A DNA stretch of 64,000 nucleotides from Nitrogeniibacter mangrovi (GTDB lineage Bacteria > Pseudomonadota > Gammaproteobacteria > Burkholderiales > Rhodocyclaceae): assembly GCF_010983895.1 (NCBI RefSeq), contig NZ_CP048836.1:3472001-3536000 (forward strand), in the 5' to 3' direction. The notes below the pieces were generated by a model that did no database searches, was not told the DNA's origin, and saw only the letters and a list, made by a program, of their open reading frames with translations. Made by a program: the position numbers and the translations under genes. This document shows, one piece after another, positions 18,415 through 34,383 of the stretch (the stretch's first letter is position 1; each line of letters starts with the position of its first letter).

Positions 18415-18448
18415 GGGGATATCCTCCTCGTCTGTCGCGTTCCGTGGC

Positions 18449-19465
18449 TCACTGACCGGTTTCACCGAAGCTCACGAGCAGTTGCAGCGTGTGCATGATG
18501 CGGTCGAGCACGAAGCCCACGAAGCCGATGGTGAACACCGCCACCATGATGCGGCCGAGGGAATGGGAGGAGCCGTTCTGGAACTCGTCCCACACGAATT
18601 TGCCCAGGCCCGGGTTCTGCGCCAGCATCTCGGCGGCGATCAGCACCATCCAGCCCACCCCGAGGGACAGGCGCAGACCGGTGAAGATCAGCTTGAGCGA
18701 GGACGGCAGCACGATCTTGGTGACCTTGGTCCACCAGGACAGGCGCAGCACCTTGGAGACGTTGATCAGGTCCTTGTCGATGGAGGCCACGCCCACCGCG
18801 GTGTTGATCAGCGTCGGCCACAGCGAACACAGGGTCACGGTGATGGCCGAGACGATGAAGCTCTTCTCGAACATCGGGTCGGTGCTCACGTAGACCGCGC
18901 TGACCACCAGGGTGACGATGGGCAGCCAGGCCAGCGGCGAGACCGGCCGGAAGATCTGGATCAGCGGATTGATGGCGATCTGGAAGATCCGCGACAGCCC
19001 GCACAGGATGCCCAGCGGCACCGCCACCAGGGTGCCCAGGGCGAAACCGGTGAACACGGTGTACAGGCTGGTGACGATCTGGTCGAAGTAGGTCGGCTTG
19101 CCGGTGTAGGGGCGCAGCTTGAGCTCGGCCTGCGGGTTGCGCTCGAGGATCTTCGCATTGCGTTCCTCCTGGCGCTGGTAGAACTCGACCTCCTTCTGGC
19201 GCTCGGCGTGGTGCTCGTCGATCAGGCCCATGGCCTCGTCCCACACCTGCGCCGGCCCGGGAATGGCGCCGAGGCTGGTCTGCACGCCGGAGGCGAGGAA
19301 GTGCCAGCCCATGAGGAACACCACCAGCGCCACGACGGGCACGCCGATCTGGGTGAGGATGCTCTTGATCTGCTCGCGCGGGTCCTCGCCCTGGGCCAGG
19401 CGGATGAAGGGAACGAACCAGGTGAAGCCGGTCCGGGTAAAGAAGTTTGCGGTTGCGTTCAACAT
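18449..19465 (-). CDS. nrtB: Nitrate ABC transporter permease
   Basis: A 338-residue permease of the nitrate/sulfonate/taurine type. An N-terminal hydrophobic segment (~residues 40-60) is followed by a charged, glutamine-rich stretch (~80-120) and then a core of about five helices. The EAA-type ATPase-contact motif is near ISVSKVLRL-like sequence ([23 protein letters not shown]). It lies between nrtA and the fused ATPase in one operon. The sulfonate importer SsuC has the same fold; nitrate specificity is inferred from NrtA and the nitrogen-type promoter. Confidence 0.92.
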
Positions 19466-19536
19466 GATCTTGCCCTCTGCTCGCCACCGCCCCGGCCGCT
19501 GCCGGCCGGGGGGTGCAAGTCCGGTGGTGTGTGCGC

Positions 19537-20943
19537 TTACTTGACCTCGTCCTTGCCTTTCAGGCCGATCTTGAGGCTGTCGATGTAGGCGTTGGGCTTG
19601 GTCCCGTCATAGGGGATGCCGTCGATGAAGTCGTTCTGCACCGGCTTGAAACCCGTTTCGGTGGCGAAATCGGGGAAGTCGGAGGCCTTCATCTTGCCTT
19701 CGGCAATCAGCTCCTTGGCGGCCGCGGCGTAGATGTCCGGGCGATACACCTTCTTGGCGATGTCCATGTACCAGCTATCCGGCTTGTAGTCGGCAATCTG
19801 GCCCCAGCGGCGCATCTGGGTGAGGTACCAGATGGCGTCGGAGTAGTACGGGTAGGTCGCGTTGTAGCGGAAGAACACGTTGAAGTCCGGCACCTTGCGC
19901 ACATCCCCCTTCTCGTACTCGAAGGTCCCGGTCATGCTGTTGGCGATGACCTTGTAGTCGGCGCCGACGTAGTTGGAGGCGGAGATCATCTTCGCCGCTT
20001 CCTTGCGGTTCTTGTCGTTCTGCTCGTCCAGCCAGTAGGCGGCGCGGATCAGCGCCTTGATGACCGCCTTGTGGGTGTTGGGGTACTTGTCGTTCCACGC
20101 CTTGGTGACGCCGAACACCTTCTCCGGATTGTTCTTCTCGATCTCGTAGTCGGTGATGATCGGCGCGCCGATGCCCTTGAACACCGCCTGCTGGTTCCAC
20201 GGCTCACCCACGCAGTAGCCGTAGATGGTGCCCGCTTCCATGGTGGCCGGCATCTGCGGCGGCGGGGTGACCGAGAGCAGCACGTCGGCGTTGATGGTGC
20301 CCGCGGTGTCGCCCTTCTTGGGCGCGTAGTAGCCCGGGTTCAGGCCGCCGGAGGCCAGGTAGTAGCGCAGCTCGTAGTTGTGCGTCGACACCGGGAACAC
20401 CATGCCCATCTTGAAGGGCTTGCCTTCCTTCTTGTAGTCGTCGACCACCGCCTTGAGGTACTCGGCCTTGATCGGATGCACCGGCTTGCCGTCCGCCTGC
20501 AGCGGCAGCTTCTTCTTGAGCTTCTCCATGACCTCGTTGGAGACGGTGATGCCGTTGCCGTTCAGGTCCATGGAGAAGGCGGTGATGATGTCCGCCTTGG
20601 TGCCGTAGCCGATGGTCGCCCCCAGCGGCTGCCCGGCCAGCATGTGGGCGCCGTCGAGCTCGCCGGAAATGACGCGGTCGAGCAGCACCTTCCAGTTGGC
20701 CTGGGCCTCGAGGGTCACATACAGCCCCTCGTCCTCGAAGTAATGCTTCTCGTAGGCCACCGCCAGCGGGGCCATGTCGGTGAGCTTGATGAAACCGAAC
20801 TTCAGGTCCGGCTTTTCGACATCCTCCGGCGCGCCATGCGCGGTCGCGGCGAAAGCGCCGAAGGCGATCAGGGTGGACACGACGACGCCACGCAAACGCC
20901 CACTGAAGGTCGCCCGCGGCAGGGAAGTGGTGTGATGTTTCAT
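19537..20943 (-). CDS. nrtA: Nitrate ABC transporter substrate-binding protein
   Basis: A 468-residue periplasmic binding protein of the NrtA/CmpA type. The N-terminus carries basic residues then a hydrophobic stretch ending in TAHGAPEDV, a typical export signal. The body includes LKFGFIKLTDMAPLAVAYE and LAGQPLGATIGYG, characteristic of this family. CmpA (bicarbonate) is a close relative, so specificity comes from context: sigma-54 promoter and adjacent nitrate reductase and nitrite reductase genes. The start at 20943 follows AAGGAG with 8-base spacing; the in-frame codon at 20976 lacks such a site. Confidence 0.92.
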   Translation of the reverse strand: MKHHTTSLPRATFSGRLRGVVVSTLIAFGAFAATAHGAPEDVEKPDLKFGFIKLTDMAPLAVAYEKHYFEDEGLYVTLEAQANWKVLLDRVISGELDGAHMLAGQPLGATIGYGTKADIITAFSMDLNGNGITVSNEVMEKLKKKLPLQADGKPVHPIKAEYLKAVVDDYKKEGKPFKMGMVFPVSTHNYELRYYLASGGLNPGYYAPKKGDTAGTINADVLLSVTPPPQMPATMEAGTIYGYCVGEPWNQQAVFKGIGAPIITDYEIEKNNPEKVFGVTKAWNDKYPNTHKAVIKALIRAAYWLDEQNDKNRKEAAKMISASNYVGADYKVIANSMTGTFEYEKGDVRKVPDFNVFFRYNATYPYYSDAIWYLTQMRRWGQIADYKPDSWYMDIAKKVYRPDIYAAAAKELIAEGKMKASDFPDFATETGFKPVQNDFIDGIPYDGTKPNAYIDSLKIGLKGKDEVK

Positions 20944-20992
20944 GGATTCAACTCCTTGTGCGAAATAGAACTGCATTCGTAATCAATGAGTT

Positions 20993-21373: not shown

Positions 21374-22960
21374 CTAGATCGATGGATCAGCGCGCTCACC
21401 CGCCGAATCGGCGGCCTTGGCGTCGATCATGAGCAGGGACATGTCGTCATGCGCCGAGGCGCCGGCCAGATGCTCCGCGAGGGCGATCTTGGCCATGTCC
21501 ACCCGCTGGCGCGCCGGCCAGGCGGCGATGACCGCCTCGAGGCGCGCCAGACCGAAGTCCTCGCCCGCGTCGTTGGCCGCCTCCGTGACTCCGTCGGAAT
21601 GGAGCACGATCTGCTCACCCGGGGCGAGTACCACCTGCTCGGGGGCACAGCCCTCGCGGCAGCTCTCGACCACCCCGAGCGGCAACTGCTGCGATGGCAC
21701 GCGCGCCCGGATGCGGCCATCGGCCGTCACCACGAGCACCGCCGGCACGCCGCCGACCCACACGTCGGCGGCACACCCATCCGCGCTCAGGCTCATCATG
21801 GCGGCGCCGACGAAACGCCCGACCGGCAGCGTCTCGTGCAGCATGTGGTTGATCTGGCTGACCACGCCGGCCAGCGGGGTGTCCTGGGCGACCAGGGCAT
21901 AGAACAGCGGCAATACCGGCTGCACGCTGACGGCTGCCGACAGTCCGTGCCCGGTGGCATCGGCCAGCATGGCGTACAGACGTCCGCCCGGCGAGGTGGC
22001 CGCCACCACCATGTCGCCGGAGAAGTTCTGCGCCGGCATCACCGAATAGTGGATGCGCGGGTCGTTCATGGCCTCGGTGTTGACCTGGCTGGCCATGATC
22101 TGCCGCGCCAGCAACTGCTCACGCTGCTGCTCGTCGTGGTAGTGCTGCAGGTGGGCCGCGTGCTGTTCGCGTTCCTCACGCACCCGGACCCGCTCGCTGA
22201 TGTCCCGCAGCACCCCGATGAACAGGCGCCGGTCCTCGAACTTGAGTTCGGTCACCCCCAGTTCCAGCGGGAAGATCTCGCCGCCCGCGCGCGCGCCCTG
22301 CACTTCACGCACCGTGCCGATGACCGCCTTCGGCCCGCCGGCGAGGTAGCGGGCCAGATAGCCGTCGTGCTCCGAACGGATTCCGGGGGGCGTGAGCACG
22401 CTGACGTTCTGTCCGATCAGGCTGCCCGCCTCGTAGCCGAACATGCGGTGCGCCGCCGGGTTGGCCGACTGGATGAGGCCGGTCTCGTCCACGGTGACGA
22501 TGCCGTCGATCACCGCATTGGAGATGGCCTGCACCCGACCGAGCAGTTCGCGCTGACCCCGCTCCATCGCCAGCAGCCGCTGCATGGTGCGCATCTTGGC
22601 CGCGAACACGGTGAAGGATATCGGCTTGACCATGTAGTCGTCGGCACCGGCATCGAGGCCCGCCACGATGTCGGCGTCGGCATTGAGGGCCGACATGATC
22701 AGGATCGGCGTCCATTCGCCGCGCTGGGCGGCACGGATGCGTCGGGTCGCCTCGAAGCCGTCCATCTCCGGCATCATCAGGTCCATCAGGACGATGTCGG
22801 GGCGCTGCTCGACGTAGGCGTCCACGGCTTCGCGGCCGTCGGCAACACAGATCGACGCGAGGCCGAGCTTGCGCAGGAACACCGTCATCATGTTGCGATT
22901 CGCCGAGGTGTCGTCGGCCACCAGAACGGTCAGCGCCTTGGTGTGGAGGATGTCAGTCAT
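21374..22960 (-). CDS. Response regulator with PAS and PP2C (SpoIIE-type) phosphatase domains
   Basis: A 528-residue protein. Residues ~10-130 form a receiver domain (acidic pair VADD, phospho-acceptor D in IVLMDLMMPE, K in MVKPIS). Residues ~145-265 form a PAS domain with a PAC-like end (GVLRDISERVRVREE), followed by a short helical linker. Residues ~300-515 form an RsbU/SpoIIE-type PP2C domain (FSGDMVVAAT, LADATGHGLSA, GVTEAAND, HDDMSLLMID carry metal-binding Asp residues). Such proteins dephosphorylate anti-sigma-factor antagonists when the receiver is phosphorylated. It lies 24 bases after the REC-HATPase gene, so the pair looks like two arms of one output. No STAS antagonist is visible in the window. 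Confidence 0.9.
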   Translation of the reverse strand: MTDILHTKALTVLVADDTSANRNMMTVFLRKLGLASICVADGREAVDAYVEQRPDIVLMDLMMPEMDGFEATRRIRAAQRGEWTPILIMSALNADADIVAGLDAGADDYMVKPISFTVFAAKMRTMQRLLAMERGQRELLGRVQAISNAVIDGIVTVDETGLIQSANPAAHRMFGYEAGSLIGQNVSVLTPPGIRSEHDGYLARYLAGGPKAVIGTVREVQGARAGGEIFPLELGVTELKFEDRRLFIGVLRDISERVRVREEREQHAAHLQHYHDEQQREQLLARQIMASQVNTEAMNDPRIHYSVMPAQNFSGDMVVAATSPGGRLYAMLADATGHGLSAAVSVQPVLPLFYALVAQDTPLAGVVSQINHMLHETLPVGRFVGAAMMSLSADGCAADVWVGGVPAVLVVTADGRIRARVPSQQLPLGVVESCREGCAPEQVVLAPGEQIVLHSDGVTEAANDAGEDFGLARLEAVIAAWPARQRVDMAKIALAEHLAGASAHDDMSLLMIDAKAADSAGERADPSI

Positions 22961-22984
22961 GGGGATGCGTCGTCTCGCCCGCCT

Positions 22985-23896
22985 TCAGCCGCCGCCACAC
23001 CGTGACGGGCGGGAGACGACGGCTTTCACACAATTGCCCTTGCCCTGGAATTCCAGCTCGCTGAAGGCGAGCTGACGCGCCAGCGCGATGCCCCGTCCAT
23101 TGGGCGCGAAGGCTCGTTCCGGCGCCAGTTCCAGATAGTTGTGCCAGTCGAAGCCGTCGCCATCATCCTCGATTTCGAAGATCCACGCATCCTCGCGGGC
23201 CACGACGGACAGATGGGCACGCCGGCCGGCATACTGGGGCAGCGCGAGCCGGCGCTCGACCTCGGCCTCCCAGCGCCCTTCTTCGCGCAGGCGCGACTTC
23301 TCCGCGAAATCGATGGCCAGATTCCCGTGCTCGACCGCATTGATGAGCAGCTCCGACAACCCCAGCACCACGATCTCGGGCTCGTCGCACAGGGATGCGG
23401 TCAGGGCCGCGAGGGCATGGGCCTCGTCCAGGGTCCGGAAGGAGAAGCGTCCGTTTTCCAGCGTCCGCAACGCCCCCACGTGCAATTCGATGCGCTGGGA
23501 CAGGTTGCGCCGCTGGCGCAAGTCGTCGAGCGCGGCACGCACGATGCTCTGCAGGCTCTCCGGCTCGAAGGGCTTGGTCAGATAGTAGTAGGCACCGGCG
23601 GCGAGCCCCTCGCGGACCTGGTCGGGACTGGCCGCCGCGGTCTGCATGATGACCGGCAATTCGCCGAGGCGCGTGTCGGCCTTGATCCGCCGCAGCACCT
23701 CCATGCCATCGATACCCGGCATCATGCGGTCGAGAATCACCAGGTCGTAGCCATGCTGCGGGTTCTGCAGCAACTCCCAGGCCTCCTCACCACTGCCGGC
23801 CATGCCCAGATCGTAGCCTTCCTCGTCGAGATACTCGCTCACGATGTCGAGATTGAATGGCTCGTCGTCCACCACCAGAATGCGCGTCACGCTCAT
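22985..23896 (-). CDS. Response regulator with RsbW-type HATPase output domain
   Basis: A 303-residue protein. Residues ~4-120 are a receiver (VVDDEP, phospho-acceptor D in LVILDRMMPG, K in LTKPFE). Residues ~160-300 are a GHKL ATPase of the anti-sigma/RsbW kind, with the N-box ELLINAVEHGNL, the G1-like IEDDGDGFDW and NGRGIALARQLA. It has no phospho-accepting histidine region. RsbW-type domains act as Ser kinases of STAS antagonists or hold sigma factors. The start overlaps the stop of the sensor kinase (ATGA at 23893-23896), so the two are translationally coupled. A paralogue with the same arrangement lies at 32396. Confidence 0.88.
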   Translation of the reverse strand: MSVTRILVVDDEPFNLDIVSEYLDEEGYDLGMAGSGEEAWELLQNPQHGYDLVILDRMMPGIDGMEVLRRIKADTRLGELPVIMQTAAASPDQVREGLAAGAYYYLTKPFEPESLQSIVRAALDDLRQRRNLSQRIELHVGALRTLENGRFSFRTLDEAHALAALTASLCDEPEIVVLGLSELLINAVEHGNLAIDFAEKSRLREEGRWEAEVERRLALPQYAGRRAHLSVVAREDAWIFEIEDDGDGFDWHNYLELAPERAFAPNGRGIALARQLAFSELEFQGKGNCVKAVVSRPSRCGGG

Positions 23897-26800
23897 CCGT
23901 CCTTTCCCTCCTCCTGTTCTTCCCGTGCCCGCGTCGTCTGCGGAACACGGTCGAGCGGCAATTTCACCACGAAACACGCGCCGCCACCGTCGGCATCCTG
24001 TGCGTGGATGCTACCGCCATGGGCCTCGACGATCTCCTTGCAGATGGCGAGCCCGAGACCGGTGCCGCCGGCCCCGGTGCGCGTCTTGCTGCTTTGCACG
24101 AATTTGTCGAACACCACCTGCCTTTCATCGGCCGGAATTCCCGGGCCTTGATCGCTCACCGACAGGCACACCGCGTCGACCGCCCTCCCGGCGCCGTCCG
24201 GGCGCACCATCGTGCCCGGCTCGATGGCCACCGAAACCGCTCCCCCGACAGGGGAAAACTTCACCGCGTTGGCGATGAGGTTGCGCACCACCTGCCCCAT
24301 GCGCACCGGATCGGCCGCCACGCGCGGAACCGGCGTGTCGGTCAGCCAACCCAGACGGACCCGGCGCGCCACGCACAGCGCCTCGAATTCGTGCATCACT
24401 TCGTCGACCACCTCGTGCAAGGCCAGCGGCTGGCGCTCCAGCGTCATCTTCCGCGCCTCGAGCCGGGACAGGTCGAGCAGATCGTTGAGCAGCGCAAGCA
24501 GGCGGTCACCGCTGGTGCGGATGCGCTGGAAGTAGCCGCGGATGCGCTCGGGGTCCGCCGACCCGCTCTTGTCCTCGCCCAGGCGGGCGTAGCTGAGCAC
24601 CGCGTGCATGGGCGAGCGCAACTCGTGCGACATGTTGGTGAGGAACAGCGTCTTGGCGTCGCTGGCGCGCTCCGCGGCCTCCTTCGCCTGCATCAGGTCC
24701 GCCGTCTGTTCCGCCACCAGCTCGGCCAGGTGGTCGCGGTGGCGGCGCAGCTCGCGGTGGGCGTGATGGACCTCGGTCACGTCGGTCCCGCAGCCGATGA
24801 AACCGGCGAACTCGCCCTGTTCGCCGTGGCGCAGGGCGCCCACCAGCATGAGCCACACGTAACTGCCGTCCGGCCGCCGCACCCGGCATTCGAACTCGAA
24901 CGGCGTGCGCTGCTCGCACGCGGCACGCACCGTCTCGGCCACCCGGTCATGGTCATCCGGATGGAGGGAACCGAGCCAGCCGGTGCCGCGCAGCCGATCC
25001 AGGCCCAGCCCGGTCAGCTCGCGTCCGTAGCGATTCACATAGGTGATCATCATCACCTCGTCCGCCACCCAGATGAACGCCGGTGCAGCATCCGCCATGA
25101 GGCGGAAGCGCGATTCGCTCTCGCGCAGCGCCGCTTCCCGTTGCTGCCGCTCGGTGATGTCGCGCAGCAGCACCAGGACCCCGCCGGTGGCGACCGGCGC
25201 GATCCGCGCCTCGTAATGCTGCATCTCGCCACGGGCGTTGCGGGCGCTGTATTCGACGACCCGCATGCGGCGCTCGGCCATGACCTCGTGAAACACCGGA
25301 GCGACCTTCTCGAAGCGCTGTCGCGAGATGATTCTCGACAACGGCTTGCCCAGCACCCGCGCCGGATCGATGCGCATGGACTCGCCCTCGCTGGCCCGGA
25401 AGGCGGTGAAATGCAACGCCTCATCGAACTGGATCATGATGTCGGGCACCGCATCGAGCATCGACTTGTTGGTCGCGTTCATCCGCCGCAGGGCGGCCTC
25501 GGCGCGCTTGCGCTCGGAGATGTCCTCGACCACGGTCCACAGCCCCTGCTCACCATCGTCGTCGTGCACCAGGGCGCCGGTCAGCACCACCGGCACCTCG
25601 GAGCCGTCGGGGCGGAAGAACGCGCGCTCGTAGGCGCTCACATGGCCGCTGCACAGGGCGTCGACGGTTTTCTCGCGATCGAGCTTGTGGAAGCGCGCCG
25701 GGGTCAGCTCCCGGTAGAAACGTCCCACCAGATCGTTCTCGTCGCGTCCGACGATACGCGCGAAGGCCGCGTTGACCCGCCGGATCTGCCCCGCCTTGGA
25801 GATCATCGCCATGCCCAGGGAGGAATTGCGGAACAGCCCGTCGAGTTCGGCGAGCGAATGGCGCAGCGCCTCCTCGGCCCGGCGCAGGGCGGTCACGTTC
25901 GAGATCACCACCACCACCACCGGCTCACCGTCCGGATCGGTGAAGGCCGCCTTGCTGATGATCACATCCCCTTCGCGTCCGTCGTGGGTGCGCACATGGA
26001 ATTCGTGCGAAACCGCGAGGCCGCTGCCGATGACTTCGTCGTCATGGACCCGGTGCGGCGCCATCTGCCCGGGGAGCAGATCGCCCACCTCGCCGTTGAG
26101 CAACGCCTCGCGGGAGGCGCCGATGAAATCGCAGGCGGCCTGGTTGGCGAAGATGTAGCGCTGCTCGCGCGTCTTGATGAGCAGCGGGTAGGGAAACACT
26201 TCGAGCACCCGAGCATAGAAGCACTGGGTCCGCTCCAGATCCCGCTCGCGCTCGCGCAGCGCCGTGATCTCGGTGACAGCCCCGGCCAGACGGTCGACGT
26301 ATCCGAGCTCGTCCCATTGGGCCTGGCCGCGCACGCGCAGGGTCTGGGGATGCCCGCGGGCATCCGTGCGCACCAGTTCGACATCCAGCGGCGCCCGCTG
26401 TTTCAGATGCGCGCGCACCGCCGAGATGAGCACCGAACGCTCCGTACCCGGCAGCTGCCGGAGCACGGCTCGCAGGGACACATACCCCGCCGCGGCCTCG
26501 CGACCGAACACGATGTCGTACCCCCGGGCCGAGAGAAACAACCGCCCGCCGGCGGTCTGCCATTCCCAGATGCCGTCGCTGGTCGCGCTCAGCGCGAGCG
26601 CGAAACGCCGTTCGCTTTCCGCCAGCTCGGAACCGATCCGCTGGGCGGCATCCTCGGCACGAAACCGTCCGGCGAGCTGAACCATGGTCAGCCAGGCCAG
26701 CATCACGCTGAGCAGCGAACCGGCGGCGCGCGTCGCGGTCTCCACCAGCGGGGTCCCGGCCTTGACCACATCGTAGAAGCGCAACTGCAACCTGCGTCCC

Positions 26801-27702
26801 GCCAGGACCAGCGTCTGCCCGGCCCCGACCGGCGCCAGATGGTCGGGCGCGGCGATCACGCGGCGATAGCGCCCCGCCGACGGATCGACCAGTTCGACCC
26901 GGTAGCGATCCTTCCAGCCGGCAAGCACCGAATCGATCCACTCCTGATAGCGGACGCCGACCGCGACGATGCCATTGACCTTTTCAAGCGAGTTGAAGCC
27001 CACCGCCCGAGGTATCCCGTGTGACTCGATCGGCATCACCAGCAGGGCGACGAGCGCATCCGGCGCCCCCGGTCCCGCGGCGAACGGCGCCGACAGCACC
27101 GGGCCATCGACCGCCAGCGCGTGGAGCACGGCATCGCGACCGGCCGGCGTTTCGATCAGATTGCTGCCCACCAGGCCGCCGAGACGCGACACGTCGGGCG
27201 AAAAATACTGAATCGGAAAGCTCAGGCCGTGGTCGAAGCCGGAGATCTGCGCCGGGCGACCGTAGAGGGCCTGGATGTTGGCCTCCCATTCGGCGCGCTG
27301 GTGCCGTTCGACACGCGGCGCGAAGACGATGCCCAGCGCACCGCGCGCGGTGATCTTGTCGATCCCCGCAATGCCGACGAAACGCAGCCACTCGTCATAG
27401 GACACCTGATCCGAAGCGGAAAACAGGCCCGCCATGGCCTTGGCCTCGCCCTCGTAGTCCCGCATACGCGAGCGCAGCATGTCGGCCAGGTGGTGGACAT
27501 CCTCGGCCATCACGCGCGCCCGGTGCGCCTGCTCCATCTGGCCGAGCCAGTGACTGATGGCAGCGGTCGTCAGCAGCCCGAGCACACCCACCGCGCATCC
27601 CACGAGGACGACGGTATTGAAGAGCCGACTACGGATCGGCGTGCGGGGGTCGATCACGCCGCCAGACGGCGGCATGTCGGTGCTGAGGCCGGGATTCGCC
27701 AT
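23893..27702 (-). CDS. Membrane sensor histidine kinase with CHASE and five PAS domains
   Basis: A 1269-residue kinase. There is a transmembrane helix at ~25-45, a periplasmic CHASE-type sensor (~75-300, with FVGIAGIDKITARGALGIVFAPR), and a second helix near 330. Five PAS-like repeats run from ~365 to ~1010 (GIWEWQ, YPLLIKT, GMAMISK, DIMIQFD and AFIWVAD mark them). A coiled stretch leads to the HisKA domain with NMSHELRSPMHA, which retains the phospho-accepting His, and a HATPase domain (NLIANAVKFSPVG, DQGPGIP, GTGLGLAIC). It has no receiver of its own; the coupled REC-HATPase gene is the likely target. A TTG at 27723 is an alternative start; the ATG at 27702 is preferred. The signal is unknown. 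Confidence 0.9.
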   Translation of the reverse strand: MANPGLSTDMPPSGGVIDPRTPIRSRLFNTVVLVGCAVGVLGLLTTAAISHWLGQMEQAHRARVMAEDVHHLADMLRSRMRDYEGEAKAMAGLFSASDQVSYDEWLRFVGIAGIDKITARGALGIVFAPRVERHQRAEWEANIQALYGRPAQISGFDHGLSFPIQYFSPDVSRLGGLVGSNLIETPAGRDAVLHALAVDGPVLSAPFAAGPGAPDALVALLVMPIESHGIPRAVGFNSLEKVNGIVAVGVRYQEWIDSVLAGWKDRYRVELVDPSAGRYRRVIAAPDHLAPVGAGQTLVLAGRRLQLRFYDVVKAGTPLVETATRAAGSLLSVMLAWLTMVQLAGRFRAEDAAQRIGSELAESERRFALALSATSDGIWEWQTAGGRLFLSARGYDIVFGREAAAGYVSLRAVLRQLPGTERSVLISAVRAHLKQRAPLDVELVRTDARGHPQTLRVRGQAQWDELGYVDRLAGAVTEITALRERERDLERTQCFYARVLEVFPYPLLIKTREQRYIFANQAACDFIGASREALLNGEVGDLLPGQMAPHRVHDDEVIGSGLAVSHEFHVRTHDGREGDVIISKAAFTDPDGEPVVVVVISNVTALRRAEEALRHSLAELDGLFRNSSLGMAMISKAGQIRRVNAAFARIVGRDENDLVGRFYRELTPARFHKLDREKTVDALCSGHVSAYERAFFRPDGSEVPVVLTGALVHDDDGEQGLWTVVEDISERKRAEAALRRMNATNKSMLDAVPDIMIQFDEALHFTAFRASEGESMRIDPARVLGKPLSRIISRQRFEKVAPVFHEVMAERRMRVVEYSARNARGEMQHYEARIAPVATGGVLVLLRDITERQQREAALRESESRFRLMADAAPAFIWVADEVMMITYVNRYGRELTGLGLDRLRGTGWLGSLHPDDHDRVAETVRAACEQRTPFEFECRVRRPDGSYVWLMLVGALRHGEQGEFAGFIGCGTDVTEVHHAHRELRRHRDHLAELVAEQTADLMQAKEAAERASDAKTLFLTNMSHELRSPMHAVLSYARLGEDKSGSADPERIRGYFQRIRTSGDRLLALLNDLLDLSRLEARKMTLERQPLALHEVVDEVMHEFEALCVARRVRLGWLTDTPVPRVAADPVRMGQVVRNLIANAVKFSPVGGAVSVAIEPGTMVRPDGAGRAVDAVCLSVSDQGPGIPADERQVVFDKFVQSSKTRTGAGGTGLGLAICKEIVEAHGGSIHAQDADGGGACFVVKLPLDRVPQTTRAREEQEEGKDG

Positions 27703-27778
27703 GCGGCGATATCGGCCCGGCAAGCGAAAACTTGAGGTTTCGTCACGGTCGCGCGCGGCCCCTCGGGCTCAATCGCGC

Positions 27779-28003
27779 TCAGCTGCAGCCGATGCCGTCC
27801 TTGACGCCCAGCCGGCGCAGGATGGTCTCGAGCGGGCAGATGCGGGTGAAGCCGCTCTGGAACAGATTGGCGCCGACGAAGGCGGTGAACCACAGGAAGT
27901 ACTTGCTCACGAACAGCGGCGAGCCGTCCACCCCGAGCGCCAGCGAGATGAGCACGAAGGCGCCGGCGAAAATGCGAACGAACTGATTGACGGTCAGCGT
28001 CAT
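27779..28003 (-). CDS. DUF2892 small membrane protein
   Basis: A 74-residue protein with one or two hydrophobic segments (RIFAGAFVLISLALGV and FLWFTAFVGANLFQSGF), followed by CPLETILRRLGVKDGIGCS. This is the DUF2892/YgaP-tail type, often attached to or beside rhodanese and sulfide-responsive genes. The start overlaps the stop of the RND pump gene (ATGA at 28000-28003), so it is translated with the pump. The function is unknown; the link to sulfur stress is family knowledge, not seen here. Confidence 0.8.
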   Translation of the reverse strand: MTLTVNQFVRIFAGAFVLISLALGVDGSPLFVSKYFLWFTAFVGANLFQSGFTRICPLETILRRLGVKDGIGCS

Positions 28004-31000
28004 GCGATCACTCCTTCCTTGATGTCGGCCACCCGCTTGCGCATGGCCGCGTAGTAGAGCACCGGGATCACCACCAGGGTGAGCACGGTGGAGACGAAAA
28101 TGCCGAAGATGAGGCTGATGGCCAGGCCGTTGAAGATCGGATCGTCGAGTATGAACACCGCGCCGATCATGGCCGCCAGCGCGGTCAGCCCGATGGGCTT
28201 GGCCCGCACCGCCGCCGAATGCACCACCGCCTGGGCGAAATCGACGCCGTCGCGCACCTGGTGGTTGATGAAATCCACCAGCAGGATGGAGTTGCGCACG
28301 ATGATGCCCGCCAGCGCGATCATGCCGATCATCGAGGTGGCGGTGAATTGCGAGCCGAGCAGCGCATGGCCGGGCATCACGCCGATGATGGTGAGCGGGA
28401 TCGGCGCCATGATGATGAGCGGCACCAGGTAGCTCTTGAACTGGGCCACCACCAGCAGGTAGATCAGGATCAGCCCCACCGCGTAGGCGATGCCCATGTC
28501 GCGGAAGGTCTCGTAGGTGATCTGCCACTCACCGTCCCACTTGATGCTGTAGCCGGTGTAGGGATCGTGCGGCGGCTGGATGAACCATTCACCCAGCGTG
28601 CCGCCCAGGTGCGTGCCCACCAGCGGCAGATCGAGCAGGCGCGAACGGATGTCGAACATGCCGTACAGGGGCGAGTCGATGGCGCCGCCCATGTCGGCGG
28701 TCACGTACACCACCGGCAGCAGATCCTTGTGGTAGATGACCTGCTCGCGCTCGGTGGGCGCCACCGTCACCAGCTCCGAGACCGGCAGCAGGGTGCCGTC
28801 GCGGGCGCGCACCTTGAGCTGGAGCAGATGGTCGATGGACGACTGGCGCGCGGCCGGCAGCTGGATGCGCACCGGCACCTCGTACTTGTTCTCGTGGCCG
28901 TGCACCGGGGTCACGTTCTCGCCCTCGAGCCCCAGGCGCATCACGTCCACGATGTCGGCCTGGGCGACGCCCATGAGGGCCGCCTTGGCCTGGTTCACCC
29001 GCAGCACGAGCTTCTCGGCGACCTCGTCGATGGTGTCGTCGGCGGCGATGATGTCGGGGGTCGCCTCGAAGGTGTCACGCACCTTCTGCGCCACCGCCAG
29101 CTGCCCCGCGTAATCCGGGCCGTACACCTCCGCCACGATGGGCGAGAGCACCGGCGGGCCGGGCGGCACTTCGACCACCTTGGCGTTGCCGCCGTGGGCC
29201 CTGGCGATGGCCATGATGCGATCGCGCATCTCGATGGCGATCTCGTGGCTCTGCTCGTCGCGGTGGTGCTTGTCGATCAGGTTCACCTGCAGGTCGCCCT
29301 GCTCCGGCGCGCTGCGCAGGTAGTACTGGCGCACCAGGCCGTTGAAGTTGATGGGGCTGGCGGTACCGGCGTAGGCCTGCCAGTTGTCCACGTACTTGGA
29401 GCGCGAGACGTACTCGCCGATCTCCAGCAGCACCTGGGCGGTGTCCTCGAGCGGTGTGCCCACCGGCATGTCGAGCACCACCTGGTATTCGGACTTGTTG
29501 TCCAACGGCAGCATCTTGAGCACCACCAGCTTGACCACCGCCAGCGACACCGAGCCGGCGATCAGCGCCAGGATCAGCAGCCACAGCAGGGCGCGGTTGC
29601 GGCCGCCGCGCCGCTCGTCGAGCATCGGCCCCATGAGGCGGCCGAAGAAGCCGGACAGGCGCCGCGTCATGGCGTCCTCGCCGCCTTCGTGGCCGTGGCC
29701 GGCGCGCGACAGGAAGCGGTTCGCCAGCCACGGCGTGACCATGAAGGCCACCAGCAGGGAGATGAACATGCCCATCGAGGCGTTGATGGGGATGGGGCTC
29801 ATGTACGGCCCCATGAGGCCGGTCACGAAGGCCATCGGCAGCAGCGCCGCGATCACCGTGAAGGTGGCCAGGATGGTCGGCCCGCCGACTTCGTCCACCG
29901 CCCCGGGGATGAGCTGCCACAGGGGTTTGTCGGGTTCGAGGGTGTGATGGCGGTGGATGTTCTCCACCACCACGATGGCATCGTCCACGAGGATGCCGAT
30001 GGAGAAGATGAGGGCGAACAGGCTCACCCGGTTGAGGGTGAAGCCCCACGCCCAGGAGGCGAACAGGGTGGCGGCCAGGGTGAGCGTGACCGCGATGCCG
30101 ACGATGATCGCCTCGCGCCAGCCGAGGGTGAGCAGCACCAGCACCACCACCGCGCTGGTGGCGAACACCAGCTTGCCGATGAGCTTGCTGGCCTTGTCGT
30201 TGGCGGTCTTGCCGTAGTTGCGGGTGACGGTCACGTGGGCACCGTCGGGGATGACCGTGCCTTCCAGGCTCTGCATGCGCGCGATGAGCGCGTCGGCCAC
30301 GTCGGAGGCGTTGGCGCCCGGCTTCTTCGACACCGCCAGGGTCACCGCCGGGTAGACCCCGGGGGTGGCGCCGCCGGCATGGCCGGCGCCGGTGCCGAAC
30401 CACACGTAGCGCTCGGGCTGGTCGGGGCCGTCCTCCACCGTGGCCACGTCGCCCATGAACACCGGTTTGCCGTCGGTGACGCCGACCACCAGGTCGCGCA
30501 CGTCGCGCGCGGAGCTGATGTAGGTGCCGGTCTGCACCAGCACCTCGGCGTTGTCGCGCACCAGCCGGCCGGCCGGCTGCGAGGCGTTGGACACCTGCAG
30601 CGCCGCCTTCAGGTCGGCGGCGGTGACGCCATGGGCGTTCATGCGCGCGGTATCGAGCAACACCCGGATCACATGGCCCGGGCCGCCGATGGTGGTCACG
30701 TCGCGGGTGCCGTCGATGCGTTTGAGCTCGATCTCGGCGGCGCGCGAGACCTGCTGCATGTCGAAGCCGGCGCGCTCAGGATCGTCGGTCCACAGGGTGA
30801 AGCTGACGATGGGCACGTCGTCGATGCCCTTGGGCTTGACGATCGGCTGCAGCACACCGAGTTGCGGGCTGAGCCAGTCGCGATGCGACTCGAGGGTGTC
30901 GTAGAGCTTCACCAGGGCGTCCTGGTTCTTCACCCCGACCTCGAACTGCACGGTGATGATCGCCATGCCCGGGCGCGACACCGAGTAGGTGTGCTCGACC

Positions 31001-31257
31001 CCGGCGATGCGCGAGAGCACCTGCTCGGCCGGCGTGGACACGATCGCCTCCACGTCGCGCGCCGAGGCGCCCGGCCACGGCACCAGCACGTTGGCCATGG
31101 TCACGTCGATCTGCGGCTCTTCTTCCTTGGGCGTGATGAGCGTGGCGAAGATGCCCATGAGCAGCAGCACCAGCGCCAGCAGCGGGGTGATCGCGTTGCG
31201 GTCGAAGGCGGACGCCAGACGCCCGGAGATGCCGAGCTTTCGTTCCGTCGCAGCCAT
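28000..31257 (-). CDS. RND-superfamily efflux pump (AcrB/HAE-type)
   Basis: A 1085-residue inner-membrane transporter with the internal twofold repeat of RND pumps. The proton-relay aspartates are in helix 4 (GILVDDAIVVVENI). The porter entry region includes VEAIVSTPAEQVLSRIAGVE. The second half repeats the pattern (ALAGIIVRNSILLVDFI). It lies 4 bases from the adaptor gene stop and overlaps the DUF2892 gene, forming an adaptor-pump-small protein operon without an outer-membrane channel gene. Substrate unknown; it resembles poorly characterised HAE-type pumps rather than the metal-exporting CusA group. Confidence 0.88.
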   Translation of the reverse strand: MAATERKLGISGRLASAFDRNAITPLLALVLLLMGIFATLITPKEEEPQIDVTMANVLVPWPGASARDVEAIVSTPAEQVLSRIAGVEHTYSVSRPGMAIITVQFEVGVKNQDALVKLYDTLESHRDWLSPQLGVLQPIVKPKGIDDVPIVSFTLWTDDPERAGFDMQQVSRAAEIELKRIDGTRDVTTIGGPGHVIRVLLDTARMNAHGVTAADLKAALQVSNASQPAGRLVRDNAEVLVQTGTYISSARDVRDLVVGVTDGKPVFMGDVATVEDGPDQPERYVWFGTGAGHAGGATPGVYPAVTLAVSKKPGANASDVADALIARMQSLEGTVIPDGAHVTVTRNYGKTANDKASKLIGKLVFATSAVVVLVLLTLGWREAIIVGIAVTLTLAATLFASWAWGFTLNRVSLFALIFSIGILVDDAIVVVENIHRHHTLEPDKPLWQLIPGAVDEVGGPTILATFTVIAALLPMAFVTGLMGPYMSPIPINASMGMFISLLVAFMVTPWLANRFLSRAGHGHEGGEDAMTRRLSGFFGRLMGPMLDERRGGRNRALLWLLILALIAGSVSLAVVKLVVLKMLPLDNKSEYQVVLDMPVGTPLEDTAQVLLEIGEYVSRSKYVDNWQAYAGTASPINFNGLVRQYYLRSAPEQGDLQVNLIDKHHRDEQSHEIAIEMRDRIMAIARAHGGNAKVVEVPPGPPVLSPIVAEVYGPDYAGQLAVAQKVRDTFEATPDIIAADDTIDEVAEKLVLRVNQAKAALMGVAQADIVDVMRLGLEGENVTPVHGHENKYEVPVRIQLPAARQSSIDHLLQLKVRARDGTLLPVSELVTVAPTEREQVIYHKDLLPVVYVTADMGGAIDSPLYGMFDIRSRLLDLPLVGTHLGGTLGEWFIQPPHDPYTGYSIKWDGEWQITYETFRDMGIAYAVGLILIYLLVVAQFKSYLVPLIIMAPIPLTIIGVMPGHALLGSQFTATSMIGMIALAGIIVRNSILLVDFINHQVRDGVDFAQAVVHSAAVRAKPIGLTALAAMIGAVFILDDPIFNGLAISLIFGIFVSTVLTLVVIPVLYYAAMRKRVADIKEGVIA

Positions 31258-31261
31258 GGGC

Positions 31262-32293
31262 TCAGTCCGCCGTCGGGGCTTTGAGGGTCAGGCTGGCGCG
31301 GATCGGATCGAGCGCCACCTGCTCGCCGTCCTTGAGCCCGGCGAGCACCTCGATGCGCCCGTCGGCCACGCTCTCGCCCGGGCGGATCTGGCGCAGGTGG
31401 AAGCCGTCCCCGGTCTTCACATAGACCGCGGTGATCTCGCCCCGGCGCAGCACCGCCGAGGCCGGGATCGTCACCCGTGCCGACTCACCCACGAACAGAT
31501 GCATGCGCGCGAACTGGCCGGGCACGAGGCCTTTGGTCGCCGCCGGCACGGTCGCGCGCACCTCGACCGTGAAGGTGCGCGGATCGGCCGCCGGCAGCAC
31601 CGTGACCCGCTCCGCCGCCACCTTCAGGTTCAGCGCCGGCACCTCCAACTGCGCCCGCAGCTGGCCATTGCCGGCACGGCCGATCACCGACAGCGGCACC
31701 TGGGCCACCACCCGCATCGCCCCCGGCGCATACACGTCGATGAGCGCCCGCCCCGGCTGCGCCATGTCACCGGCGTCCACATGGCGCACCGCGACGATGC
31801 CGTCGAAGGGCGCCGTGATGGTGGTGAAGTCGCGCGCCACCACGGCCTGGCCGCGGCCGGCCTGGGCCGCCTTGAGGCTGGCCTCCGCCGCGCGCAGCGC
31901 CGCCTGCGCCTGATCCACATGGGCCTGGCTGACGAACTTCTGGTTGAACAGGGCCTGGGTGCGTTCCCATTCGGCCCGCGCGTTGGCATAGGCCGCCTGG
32001 GCCCGCGCCACGTTGGCCACCGCCGCGGCCACCGACTGGTTGGCCTCGGCGGCATCCACGCGCATGAGCACCTGCCCCCGGCGCACCGTGTCACCGGCAT
32101 CGACCGGGGTGGCGAGGATGCGCCCCTGCACCTGGGCGGCGACGGTGGCGCTGGTCACGGCCTCGACGACGCCCTCGGCCACATGCTGGCTCGCCACCGG
32201 TGCGCGCTCGACCGGCGCGGTGGCGACCGGTTCGGCATGGACAGGGAACGCCACGACGGCGATCAGGAGGAGGAAGGTCTGGCGGATTTTCAT
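31262..32293 (-). CDS. RND efflux periplasmic adaptor (membrane fusion protein)
   Basis: A 343-residue adaptor with an N-terminal signal peptide (MKIRQTFLLLIAVVAFPVHA). It has a lipoyl-like half (VQGRILATPVDAGDTVRRGQ), a coiled hairpin (~90-160, Ala/Gln-rich), and beta-barrel and membrane-proximal regions. It links the inner-membrane pump to an outer channel that is not encoded nearby. The ATG at 32293 has no Shine-Dalgarno sequence; AT-rich sequence with a palindrome lies just upstream, so a leaderless or very short 5' leader is possible. Confidence 0.88.
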   Translation of the reverse strand: MKIRQTFLLLIAVVAFPVHAEPVATAPVERAPVASQHVAEGVVEAVTSATVAAQVQGRILATPVDAGDTVRRGQVLMRVDAAEANQSVAAAVANVARAQAAYANARAEWERTQALFNQKFVSQAHVDQAQAALRAAEASLKAAQAGRGQAVVARDFTTITAPFDGIVAVRHVDAGDMAQPGRALIDVYAPGAMRVVAQVPLSVIGRAGNGQLRAQLEVPALNLKVAAERVTVLPAADPRTFTVEVRATVPAATKGLVPGQFARMHLFVGESARVTIPASAVLRRGEITAVYVKTGDGFHLRQIRPGESVADGRIEVLAGLKDGEQVALDPIRASLTLKAPTAD

Positions 32294-32301
32294 GTTTATT
32301 A

Positions 32302-32317
32302 GTATATGCTTATATAC
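32302..32317 (-). promoter_or_regulatory. AT-rich palindromic operator before the efflux operon
   Basis: GTATAT-GCTT-ATATAC is a perfect 6-4-6 palindrome centred about 17 bases upstream of the adaptor start, inside an AT-rich island (32287-32325) that contrasts with the GC-rich surroundings. Its form resembles ArsR/SmtB-family operators. No such regulator gene lies next to it, so the binding protein is unknown. Confidence 0.55.
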
Positions 32318-32395
32318 AAGGATATCAAGCGCTATCTGCGCTTGTCTTGCCACCCGCAGTGCGCCCGCGCACCCACCCCGCGCGCGGCGATCCAC

Positions 32396-33316
32396 TCAGG
32401 CGCGAAAGCGCGGCCGGGGGGTCGCCTCCGCCTCGATGCGGCGGCCGCCGTCAGCGAACACGAGTGCTGGAAAAGCCAGCTGCCGCGCCAGCGCGATGCC
32501 GCGCCCGTTCAGGCGGACCGGATCGTCGGGCATCTCCTGGAAACGGGTCCAGTCGAAGCCCTCGCCCTGATCCTCGATGACGAAGCGCACGGCGTCGGCT
32601 TCGACGCTCACCGCCAGTTGCGCCACGCGGTGACGAAACGCCGCGGCGCCCTGGCGACGATCGATTTCCTCGCGCCAGCACCCCGACTGCATCAGCTGCT
32701 GCTTGGCCTCGAACCCCAGCCCGAGATTGCCGTGCTCCACCGCGTTGACGAGCAGTTCGGCGAGCGCGATGCGCACCAGGTCGGGCTCGGCGCACAAGCG
32801 GGCGACGGCGCGTGCGAGTGCCGCGGCTTCGTCCACCGTGCGGAAGCGGAACACCCCCTGGCCGAGCAACGCCAGGCTGGTCTCCATGTCGGCGGCCTGC
32901 TCGGCCAGCTGCACCCGCTCGCGGGACTGACGCAACGCCGCGCGCACCATGGCGGAGAGCGCCTCGATGCGGAAGGGTTTGGTCAGATAGAAATCGGCGC
33001 CCGCCTCGATGCCCTCGGCCACCTGGACCGGATCGGCGACGGCGGTCTGGAGAATCACCGGCAGGTGCGCCAGCGTCGGCGAGGCGCGGATATGGCGCAG
33101 GATCGCCATGCCGTCGGGCGCCTGCATGCGCCGGTCCAGGATCACCAGATCGAACTCGCAACGGGCATCGTCGAGCAGGCGCAGCGCGGCGCGTCCGTCC
33201 TGCAGGGCGGTCACCTCATAGGCTTCACCGAGCACCTCGGAGACGAGTTCGAGACTGAACGGCTCCTCGTCCACGGCGAGGATGCGGGCGCGCAGCGCCG
33301 TGGGATGCGGCATCAT
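32396..33316 (-). CDS. Response regulator with RsbW-type HATPase domain (paralogue)
   Basis: A 306-residue paralogue of the protein at 22985. The receiver covers ~10-128 (VDEEP in place of VDDEP, phospho-acceptor D in LVILDRRM, K in LTKPFR). The GHKL domain has ELLVNAVEHGNL, IEDQGEGFDW and NGRGIALARQLA. The start overlaps the stop of the upstream kinase-like gene (ATGA at 33313-33316), the same coupling as in the first module. Output is probably a protein kinase or anti-sigma activity, inferred from the domain. Its partner kinase lacks the usual histidine. Confidence 0.85.
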   Translation of the reverse strand: MMPHPTALRARILAVDEEPFSLELVSEVLGEAYEVTALQDGRAALRLLDDARCEFDLVILDRRMQAPDGMAILRHIRASPTLAHLPVILQTAVADPVQVAEGIEAGADFYLTKPFRIEALSAMVRAALRQSRERVQLAEQAADMETSLALLGQGVFRFRTVDEAAALARAVARLCAEPDLVRIALAELLVNAVEHGNLGLGFEAKQQLMQSGCWREEIDRRQGAAAFRHRVAQLAVSVEADAVRFVIEDQGEGFDWTRFQEMPDDPVRLNGRGIALARQLAFPALVFADGGRRIEAEATPRPRFRA

Positions 33317-34383
33317 CCGGGCGCCTCCGCGGACACGGAGCCCGCCCGGCGCAGACCGGGCAACCACACGCGGAACACCGCCCCGCCCGCCGCCCGGTTG
33401 CCGGCCTCGATGCGGCCGCCGAAAATCTCGACGTGCTGACGGCAGATCGACAGCCCGAGGCCGCCGACCGGAACCGCCATCGACCCAGTCGCGCCGTCCC
33501 GACCATAGGCACCGAAGAGTCGTTCCGGCACCTCCTCGGCCAGACCGGTCCCCTGGTCGGCCACCTCGAGGACCACGTCACCTGCGCCATCGGGCGCCTC
33601 ATGCAGGCGAATGTCGATCCGCGCGCCGACCGGAGAAAACTTCACCGCGTTGGAAAACAGGTGCTCGGCCACCTCACGCAGACGCGCTTGGTCGGCATGC
33701 ACAGGCGTCAGATCCGGCGCCACGTCCATGGACACCGACAGACGTTTGGCACGCAGCAGGGCATCGCCACGCGCAACCACCTCTCGGCACACCGCCGCCC
33801 AGTCGACCGGCCCCAGCGCGACGGGTCCGCCTGTCCGGGTGGCGCTGGGCAGATCGCACAGTTCGGTGACCATCGTCAGCATGTGCTGCGCGCTGCGATC
33901 GATGCGCGAGAAATAGACATGTTCACGCGCCGCCTTGCCGGTCGCCGCACACCCCAGCTGCGCATAGCCGCCGATCGCATGCAGGGGGCCGCGCAACTCG
34001 AGCGCCAGGCCGGCGAGAAAGTCCGCTTGCGCGCATCGGGCGCGCTCAGCCGCCTCCTTGGCCAGCAGCAGGTCCACCGTCTGCTCGGCCACCAGCTCGG
34101 CCAGGTCACCGCGATGGCGCGCCAGCTCGCGTTCCTGCGCCTGGATGCGGCTCTCCAGGCGGTTCGCCCGGGTGCGTTCGCGTCGCCACCGGGCCCCGAC
34201 GCCGATCGCGACCATCGCCAGGATCACGCAGGCGAGCAGGGCGCCGGCGAGCGCCGTCGGCGCACTCGGGGACGCCCCCGCCGCCCGCACCTCGATCATG
34301 GGATAGACCGCGAGCACCGCCACGACCGCCCTGAGCCGACACGTGCACACGCCACGGGATGTCCATGCTGGACCCAATGCCAC
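33313..34383 (-). CDS. Histidine-kinase-like protein lacking the phospho-acceptor histidine
   Basis: A 356-residue protein with one or two N-terminal hydrophobic segments (~18-30 and ~43-62), a coiled linker and a HisKA-HATPase core. The H-box reads FLAGLALELRGPLHA, with Leu (codon CTC at 34000-34002) where the histidine should be; the similar kinase at 23893 has FLTNMSHELRSPMHA. The ATP-binding half keeps its N-box (HLFSNAVKFSPVG), DQGTGLAE and GGLGLSIC. It may bind ATP without autophosphorylating in the normal way, or may regulate a partner. The GTG start follows GGAGG by 4 bases; an ATG at 34299 is an alternative. Confidence 0.82.
   Translation of the reverse strand: MALGPAWTSRGVCTCRLRAVVAVLAVYPMIEVRAAGASPSAPTALAGALLACVILAMVAIGVGARWRRERTRANRLESRIQAQERELARHRGDLAELVAEQTVDLLLAKEAAERARCAQADFLAGLALELRGPLHAIGGYAQLGCAATGKAAREHVYFSRIDRSAQHMLTMVTELCDLPSATRTGGPVALGPVDWAAVCREVVARGDALLRAKRLSVSMDVAPDLTPVHADQARLREVAEHLFSNAVKFSPVGARIDIRLHEAPDGAGDVVLEVADQGTGLAEEVPERLFGAYGRDGATGSMAVPVGGLGLSICRQHVEIFGGRIEAGNRAAGGAVFRVWLPGLRRAGSVSAEAPG

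Follow-up and report, generated by a model that had tools for sequence, protein, structure and literature searches.

In Pseudomonas, HsbR joins a receiver, a phosphatase and a kinase in one chain and sets the phosphorylation of HsbA (PMC6482189). Phosphorylated HsbA binds HsbR and HsbD, and unphosphorylated HsbA binds FlgM (PMC6482189/PMC9855816); the phosphorylated receiver of HsbR goes with the phosphatase output. CrsR and CrsA, encoded in the che1 locus of Shewanella, regulate RpoS (PMC9855816/PMC6482189). The RsfS/RsfR-RsfB system of Mycobacterium smegmatis consists of a histidine kinase and a receiver-PP2C protein acting on a STAS-type antagonist, as was shown for RsfR, and phosphorylation of the RsfR receiver lowers the phosphatase activity (PMC10950880). 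RsbK/RsbY of B. cereus, a histidine kinase with a receiver-PP2C protein, is placed in the same group as RsfR and RbaY; for RbaY of R. capsulatus, action on a STAS antagonist is predicted, and rbaY is unlinked to rbaVW (PMC3999984). In TciK/TciR of Vogesella indigofera (2025), a histidine kinase is followed by a regulator made of a receiver (REC) and an RsbW-like domain in an apparent two-gene operon, and the kinase residues are said to be conserved (PMC12826045). In LvrB/LvrC of Leptospira (2026), LvrC is a REC plus Bergerat anti-sigma-type regulator (PMC13269768, PDB 9QIH). These accounts, like the comparisons drawn from them below, hold for those parts of the sources that were covered. The present work concerns a 64-kb stretch of the one-contig, 4.24 Mb genome of Nitrogeniibacter mangrovi (C1:3472001-3536000, hereafter the window), which carries two modules of a histidine kinase and a REC-RsbW-type regulator, called A and B, the first with a receiver-PP2C phosphatase gene alongside.

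It is fairly likely that module A is a split HsbR/CrsR-type partner switch, with kinase and phosphatase carried by two different response regulators next to a single sensor kinase. The genes studied all lie on the minus strand, where a first-pass annotation of the DNA had put them; they were called from an open reading frame listing and a coding model, and their domains were assigned by Pfam. Kinase A (23893-27702, longest open reading frame to 27723) has CHASE, four PAS_4 stretches with other PAS models, HisKA with the HELRSP motif, and HATPase_c. The next gene encodes REC-GHKL A (22985-23896; PF00072 E 4e-29, PF13581 HATPase_c_2 E 1e-8), a putative STAS kinase or anti-sigma factor with a receiver and an RsbW/SpoIIAB-type ATPase. 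It is followed by a SpoIIE/RsbU-type response regulator, REC-PAS-PP2C (21374-22960; PF00072 E 1.8e-25, PAS, PF07228 E 2.3e-32), a putative phosphatase for a STAS protein. The translation of the latter contains FSGD, LADATGHG, HSDGVTEA and HDDMS, which we take to be the PPM motifs. An ATGA overlap joins kinase and REC-GHKL genes in both modules. The parts of module A thus agree with the first-pass annotation, and partner switching, the interpretation it had proposed, is still the best reading of a receiver, an RsbW-type domain and a PP2C phosphatase with conserved catalytic residues beside a histidine kinase.

Judged by sequence and predicted fold, the GHKL domain of REC-GHKL A is of the RsbW/SpoIIAB type, as had been proposed for the domain fused to these receivers. 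The structure model covers A, and B was classed by Pfam and motifs; PF13581 is above the cut-off in both. Features of the TciR/LvrC class, an N-terminal receiver with Asp and Lys and a C-terminal PF13581 domain, are found in A and B alike. Across 27 homologues, the receiver phospho-acceptor D56 is invariant and K108 and T86 are nearly so; in the GHKL domain the N-box N186, D244/G246/G248 and G267-R268-G269-I270 are conserved and E182 is nearly invariant. The full-length model of A (predicted local distance difference test, pLDDT, 90.9) has LvrC (PDB 9QIH) as its best PDB fold match (Foldseek E 3.7e-18, 24% identity), the only one of the top 50 PDB entries labelled as aligned across both domains, with the domains arranged differently (root-mean-square deviation 14 over 283 residues). 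Since receiver domains filled the match list of the full-length model, the GHKL domain was modelled alone (pLDDT 87.3). Its top matches were LvrC (E 8e-9), then SpoIIAB complexed with its antagonist (1th8, 1til) and RsbW from RsbV/RsbW complexes (6m36, 6m37) at about E 2e-4 to 2e-3, and the ATP domains of histidine kinases and CheA matched at E 0.027 or worse. A PDB sequence search with the GHKL domain returned one marginal match (9qih, E 0.0076, molecule name SenB), and that with the last 208 residues of the phosphatase returned none at 0.001. SiaABC-type kinases and PhyR-type systems were considered and set aside; Pfam gave GHKL and no sigma-like domain. The genome has 32 HATPase_c_2 matches; in the 30 loci analysed, A and B are the sole strong matches to the REC-GHKL family profile (E 1e-74 and 1e-57, the next 5e-7), and L012 (loci and genomes are cited by our L and G numbers) matched neither this profile nor that of the kinase.

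This gene order is found again in other genomes, so the locus is more than a chance arrangement. From a scan, 80 named loci were kept with flanks of at most 8 kb on each side; ten without a called REC-GHKL gene were dropped beforehand and 70 were counted. A histidine kinase gene lies directly upstream of REC-GHKL in 42 of the 70 and a REC-PP2C gene directly downstream in 39, with both present in 30. Module A is a recurring cassette.

The window gave no PF01740 STAS match in a profile search, and inspection of its called genes by eye revealed no sigma factor, no general sigma profile having been run. The RsbVW/SigB-type arrangement, in which STAS and sigma genes stand beside the RsbW gene, is accordingly not seen there, the sigma part of this comparison being by eye only. 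The first-pass annotation had noted both absences rightly and had concluded that the final target was missing; this conclusion is not supported for the genome, which encodes RpoS (C1:2370107-2370943) and, within a che operon, a single-domain STAS protein. The profile search found six STAS matches in the genome. Three are frames of SulP size (672, 687 and 561 amino acids), one of them read by eye as a transporter. A two-STAS protein is encoded between tol-type genes and hslV-hslU (L044:4386-5381), and its halves, read by eye, seem to be without Ser. The missing partner is probably the single-domain STAS protein of 99 amino acids (C1:2571261-2571557 = L042:6259-6558; PF01740/PF13466) encoded in the main che operon, the order of which is cheR-cheD-cheB-STAS-MCP. 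The gene is about 0.9 million bases from the cassette. The solved relatives of this protein are the anti-sigma antagonists TM1442 and SpoIIAA. An Asp-Ser (D-S) motif is present in 57/57 STAS matches of the loci scanned, some of which share a genome, so that a Ser-bearing STAS antagonist, a feature of the HsbR/CrsR systems, exists in this genome. From neighbourhood and motif we presume the protein to be HsbA/CrsA-like, no Pseudomonas or Shewanella sequence having been compared. It is put forward as the partner because of near-obligate co-occurrence with REC-GHKL, adjacency, domain fusions and, in some relatives, an HsbR/CrsR-type gene directly after this STAS gene.

A search for STAS proteins that co-occur across genomes, suggested in the first-pass annotation, was carried out on family and order sets, and 66/68 family and 66/69 order carriers of REC-GHKL have STAS. 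For the 150 genomes of the family, REC-GHKL was called at a best E of 1e-60 or lower and STAS at 1e-14 or lower (tables are given as both / REC-GHKL only / STAS only / neither). REC-GHKL was found in 68 genomes and STAS in 74, with the distribution 66/2/8/74 (Fisher 1e-30); the two carriers without STAS are G016 (79% complete) and G085 (1240 contigs). CheD served as the control for chemotaxis, and its own table with REC-GHKL is 63/5/39/43. Among the 102 CheD-positive genomes, REC-GHKL and STAS are distributed 61/2/6/33 (p 2.5e-18), and among the CheD-negative ones 5/0/2/41. The association holds in each genome-size class: 9/1/1/30 below 3.0 Mb (p 3e-7), 14/0/5/21 from 3.0 to below 3.8 Mb (p 5e-7) and 43/1/2/23 at 3.8 Mb and above (p 6e-15). 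Counted by genus, the family gives 37/0/4/27. Furthermore, SpoIIE-type PP2C relatives occur in 68/68 REC-GHKL genomes and 73/74 STAS genomes of the family, in a hand-picked set of matches in which fused phosphatases of the HsbR type are counted too. The order set of 300 genomes, some of them also in the family set, gave 66/3/31/200 at thresholds of 1e-35 for REC-GHKL and 1e-12 for STAS, two of the 69 REC-GHKL matches being partial; STAS is thus present in 66/69 carriers and in 31/231 non-carriers. By genus this becomes 31/2/11/91, or STAS in 31/33 carrier and 11/102 non-carrier genera.

For 28 of the 80 named loci the genome was checked for STAS at E up to 1e-4; because several of them recur in the family or order sets, these genomes are not all independent. 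STAS was found in 12/12 genomes of the first batch, which includes Zoogloea, Methyloversatilis, Azonexus, Dechloromonas, Deefgea, Chitinibacter, Andreprevotia, Iodobacter, Thiocystis and Asticcacaulis, and in 15/16 of the second, the miss being a 2.1 Mb metagenome-assembled genome (MAG) of Sideroxyarcus. Iodobacter and Andreprevotia belong to Neisseriales, the order of Vogesella. Seven genera vary in REC-GHKL, and STAS co-varies with it in five of them (g2, g7, g20, g21, g66). REC-GHKL genes almost imply a che-type STAS gene in the same genome.

Physical links of the two genes were also found. In L131, the STAS and REC-GHKL genes share a strand, the former 34 bp upstream of the latter, with a divergent REC-PP2C gene followed by a REC-Hpt gene, cheB and cheD. 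In two Burkholderiales MAGs (L192/L253 and L225/L252), the kinase and REC-GHKL genes are followed by two opposite-strand genes and then by the che cluster, so that REC-GHKL is 8 and 12 kb upstream, on the same strand, of cheB-STAS-REC-PP2C; the overlap of L192 with L253 was confirmed by sequence, and both pairs are single-contig by coordinates. In G272 the REC-GHKL and STAS genes are 5 kb apart on one contig and one strand. The distance would be 10-14 kb in L195 and in Asticcacaulis L215 if the contig is the same. Single chains of the composition REC-GHKL-REC-PP2C occur in L134 and L135, that of L134 established by Pfam. Ten STAS regions were chosen from six of the eight STAS-only genomes and from four carriers picked for a PP2C match beside STAS; in 8/10 of these chosen regions STAS is followed by a REC-PP2C-GHKL protein of 526-598 amino acids, in the HsbR/CrsR order. 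Four genomes with such a gene have no separate REC-GHKL (G037, G046, G087, G101); the fused protein would account for half of the eight STAS-only cases. Beside STAS, G090 lacks a REC-PP2C-GHKL gene, and in G084 the contig ends there. When the GHKL domain of A was compared by BLAST with long proteins beside STAS in eight loci, matches were obtained in L108, L245 and L259 (31-38% identity over 67-127 amino acids); several other long proteins in this comparison were cut by the locus end. In N. mangrovi itself, no REC-PP2C-GHKL gene follows the che-operon STAS gene and no SpoIIE-type match adjoins it. The single REC-PP2C-GHKL chain of HsbR/CrsR is represented in the window by separate genes, and of the CrsA/CrsR-like pairing in a che locus only the STAS gene is in the che operon, the regulator gene being elsewhere. 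In Sedimenticola (L257), two tandem STAS genes follow an MCP gene.

From the parts, motifs, predicted folds, co-occurrence, gene linkage and fusions we infer the phosphotransfer and binding steps, their direction and the final target as follows. Kinase A would phosphorylate the receivers of both its neighbours, REC-GHKL A and REC-PAS-PP2C. The GHKL domain would act as a Ser kinase and the PP2C domain as the opposing phosphatase on a shared substrate, the 99-amino-acid che-operon STAS, the phosphorylated residue being presumably the Ser of the invariant D-S motif. By phosphorylating both neighbours, kinase A would shift the Ser-phosphorylation balance of the distant STAS protein. By analogy with HsbR, we lean towards a direction in which the phosphorylated receiver favours phosphatase output. 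Depending on the phosphorylation state of STAS, the GHKL proteins would then retain or release a client, for which RpoS is the most likely choice in view of CrsR and HsbR; alternatively, STAS may bind another partner, as with FlgM or the diguanylate cyclase in Pseudomonas. REC-GHKL B, whose own histidine kinase would no longer work, may be an additional kinase acting on this STAS protein or on a different one.

Several observations weigh against this scheme. The STAS gene lies within the flanks of REC-GHKL in 0/70 named loci, and the gene after STAS is of the PP2C type in 5/30 best STAS loci, being otherwise an MCP gene, CheW-REC, another gene or not seen. Most of the ten STAS regions were chosen because a PP2C match adjoined STAS. 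G020, G029, G036 and G133 carry the HsbR-type protein beside STAS plus a REC-GHKL, which could serve another STAS protein there; G029 has seven STAS matches. N. mangrovi has a candidate alternative substrate as well: another single STAS protein, bearing an FDSAGVQ motif, whose gene adjoins that of a CheA in a second che operon (L043:5948-6280). The co-occurrence statistics ignore kinship, being uncorrected for the tree, and the presence sets were taken by hand from listings at thresholds of our choice. In two of the seven genera mentioned above (g32, g60) STAS does not fully co-vary with REC-GHKL, and in five further genera (g17, g24, g25, g28, g38) STAS alone varies. RpoS exceeded the cut-off in 130/150 family genomes and gains no support as the target; with a gene so near to universal, co-occurrence is uninformative on this point. 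Finally, the authors of the TciR study state that their host strain has no RsbV homologue (PMC12826045).

In another explanation, REC-GHKL proteins would be receiver-gated anti-sigma factors that bind sigma directly with no STAS substrate. This is what the published models of TciR and LvrC propose; structures of anti-sigma factors in complex with their sigma factors (1l0o, 8jzt) are also among the fold matches of the GHKL domain, and an RpoS gene is present. However, a STAS-free mechanism does not predict that REC-GHKL carriers nearly always have STAS and that each of the 68 in the family has a hand-picked SpoIIE-type PP2C relative, so these co-occurrences count against it. Conservation of the kinase-box residues and the frequent position of REC-PP2C directly downstream of REC-GHKL also speak against direct binding, which we regard as unlikely.

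A further alternative is a local target among the genes around the cassette. In the order of transcription the window has kinase B, REC-GHKL B, MFP, RND, DUF2892-like, kinase A, REC-GHKL A, REC-PAS-PP2C and NrtABC. Between the modules, as the first-pass annotation had it, lies an RND pump operon (27779-32293) of MFP (31262-32293), RND (28000-31257) and DUF2892-like (27779-28003) genes, and the transporter genes called NrtABC (16648-20976) are downstream of the phosphatase gene. The names RND, MFP, DUF2892 and NrtABC, like NasT, NrtA and NrtB elsewhere, are presumed from resemblance. In principle, the circuit could regulate the adjoining nitrate-assimilation genes (NrtABC, NasT) or the pump through another substrate. 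NrtA and NrtB genes are found in 11/70 named loci and an RND gene in 12/70, and in L085, L086, L099 and L100 the MFP-RND-DUF2892 operon still has a GHKL-only protein, lacking a receiver, encoded beside it. Most of the 70 loci, however, show neither neighbour within the flanks; REC-GHKL genes with neither of them in the stretch examined include those of L093, L096 and L098, and no candidate substrate was noticed in the nitrate or pump operons. A local target therefore seems improbable, and the pump operon, for which there is no evidence of membership in the switch, is treated as a conserved neighbour.

REC-GHKL and REC-PP2C genes are often near ANTAR-like (NasT) and NrtA/NrtB genes (L156-L158, L160-L162, L164, L165, L167, L170, L188 and window 16648-20976), which hints at a connection with nitrogen. 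Two PP2C-type proteins of about 575 amino acids with long frames past the PP2C part are encoded beside nitrate/nitrite-transport-like genes (window 12121-13839, L046:5904-7640). A PAS-PP2C protein without a receiver (L045:5620-6852), 45% identical to the window phosphatase over query residues 248-520, is a candidate for a further STAS phosphatase in this genome. In one relative, a gene convergent with REC-PAS-PP2C of the cassette (L093:7753-8130) was considered as STAS and rejected, as Pfam assigned it to PF11964 SpoIIAA-like and not to PF01740. In two same-genus genomes, a gene for what we presume by resemblance to be a sulfide-quinone-reductase-like flavoprotein stands between MFP and RND (L082:6432-7706; L083:12801-14087).

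Module B consists of REC-GHKL B (32396-33316; PF00072 and PF13581), an old paralogue of A with the same conserved motifs, and kinase B (33313-34323, longest open reading frame to 34383), a short protein with HisKA and HATPase_c and no sensor domain matched. The two kinases are 39% identical over 280 amino acids, and MSHELRSP of A is aligned with LALELRGP of B; kinase B is therefore without the His. Alignment, Pfam and the junction thus bear out the description of a His-less kinase coupled to a paralogous receiver-GHKL protein. The counterparts of kinase B in three same-genus relatives keep HELR and are longer (585, 856 and 859 amino acids), so the loss appears private to this genome among the genomes compared, and kinase B is probably a degenerating pseudokinase. 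The modules had also been called duplicated. The REC-GHKL proteins are indeed paralogues (48% identity over 295 amino acids), but the duplication is not recent. A tree of 35 GHKL-domain rows unites the A proteins of the genus in a single clade (99/99); its B proteins join pump-linked GHKL proteins from one other genus, represented by two genomes (L084, L089; 97/93). Placed apart from A, B is thus an old pump-linked paralogue and no fresh duplication, and on the strength of the tree a recent tandem event was set aside. The receiver-less proteins of L085, L086, L099 and L100 did not group with B (80/61, weak). That module B, and possibly A, is a relic and the locus has no coherent function, with kinase B dead and REC-GHKL B being lost, is very improbable: kinase B is indeed shortened against its relatives and no longer has the His, and the B-lineage protein of L084 has a weak receiver match (E 5e-4), but the reading frames of A, B and the phosphatase are intact with conserved catalytic residues, and REC-GHKL A is syntenic and 71-81% identical in three same-genus genomes.

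A partner switch split between the cassette and the che operon would offer a way for a two-component system to control Ser phosphorylation with its parts far apart in the genome. The TciR and LvrC papers leave the partner unknown, and the che-operon STAS is a concrete, testable candidate. More tentatively, REC-RsbW regulators might be a widespread class of kinases working through a trans-encoded che-operon STAS, a hub for several kinases (A, B) and phosphatases (REC-PAS-PP2C, PAS-PP2C). Membrane, nitrate-linked, pump-linked and chemoreceptor inputs would then converge on one Ser switch of RpoS and motility, with fused HsbR/CrsR as the compact form; if true, TciR and perhaps LvrC would thereby gain the partner that they lack.

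The first-pass annotation had put the system forward as a candidate for an undescribed one, which is not supported. A histidine kinase with a REC-RsbW regulator (TciR, LvrC), a REC-PP2C phosphatase acting on STAS (RsfSR) and the two combined (HsbR, CrsR) are known, and the REC-RsbW architecture and REC-PP2C phosphatases of STAS antagonists are thus not new. In the literature searched, with most subscription journals outside the coverage, neither a histidine kinase beside a separate receiver-gated kinase and phosphatase nor a link of REC-RsbW regulators to a che-operon STAS was found; the latter may already be in print elsewhere. The gene sypA of Vibrio fischeri lies in the syp cluster. SypE, which acts on the STAS protein SypA, resembles the present system in having an RsbW-like kinase and a PP2C with a receiver, but combines the kinase, REC and PP2C domains in a single chain (PMC12826045). 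TciK/TciR has the same pair of histidine kinase and REC-RsbW regulator, with no PP2C partner in the parts of the paper covered, whereas here REC-PAS-PP2C is adjacent and a STAS substrate is proposed. LvrC is the best structural match over both domains despite their different arrangement; its sigma target is unknown and no STAS appears in the main text (PMC13269768), in contrast to the STAS proposed here. A further difference is that LvrB is itself a REC-controlled kinase, acted on by LvrA. In RsfSR, RsbKY and RbaY, the receiver is on the phosphatase only, and the RsbW-type kinase has none. HsbR/CrsR share with this system the receiver, PP2C and GHKL kinase/anti-sigma functions directed at an anti-sigma antagonist, and crsA lies in the che1 locus as the STAS gene lies in the che operon here. 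Unlike their single REC-PP2C-GHKL chain, the N. mangrovi regulators are separate proteins, encoded far from the STAS gene and beside a membrane-type kinase.

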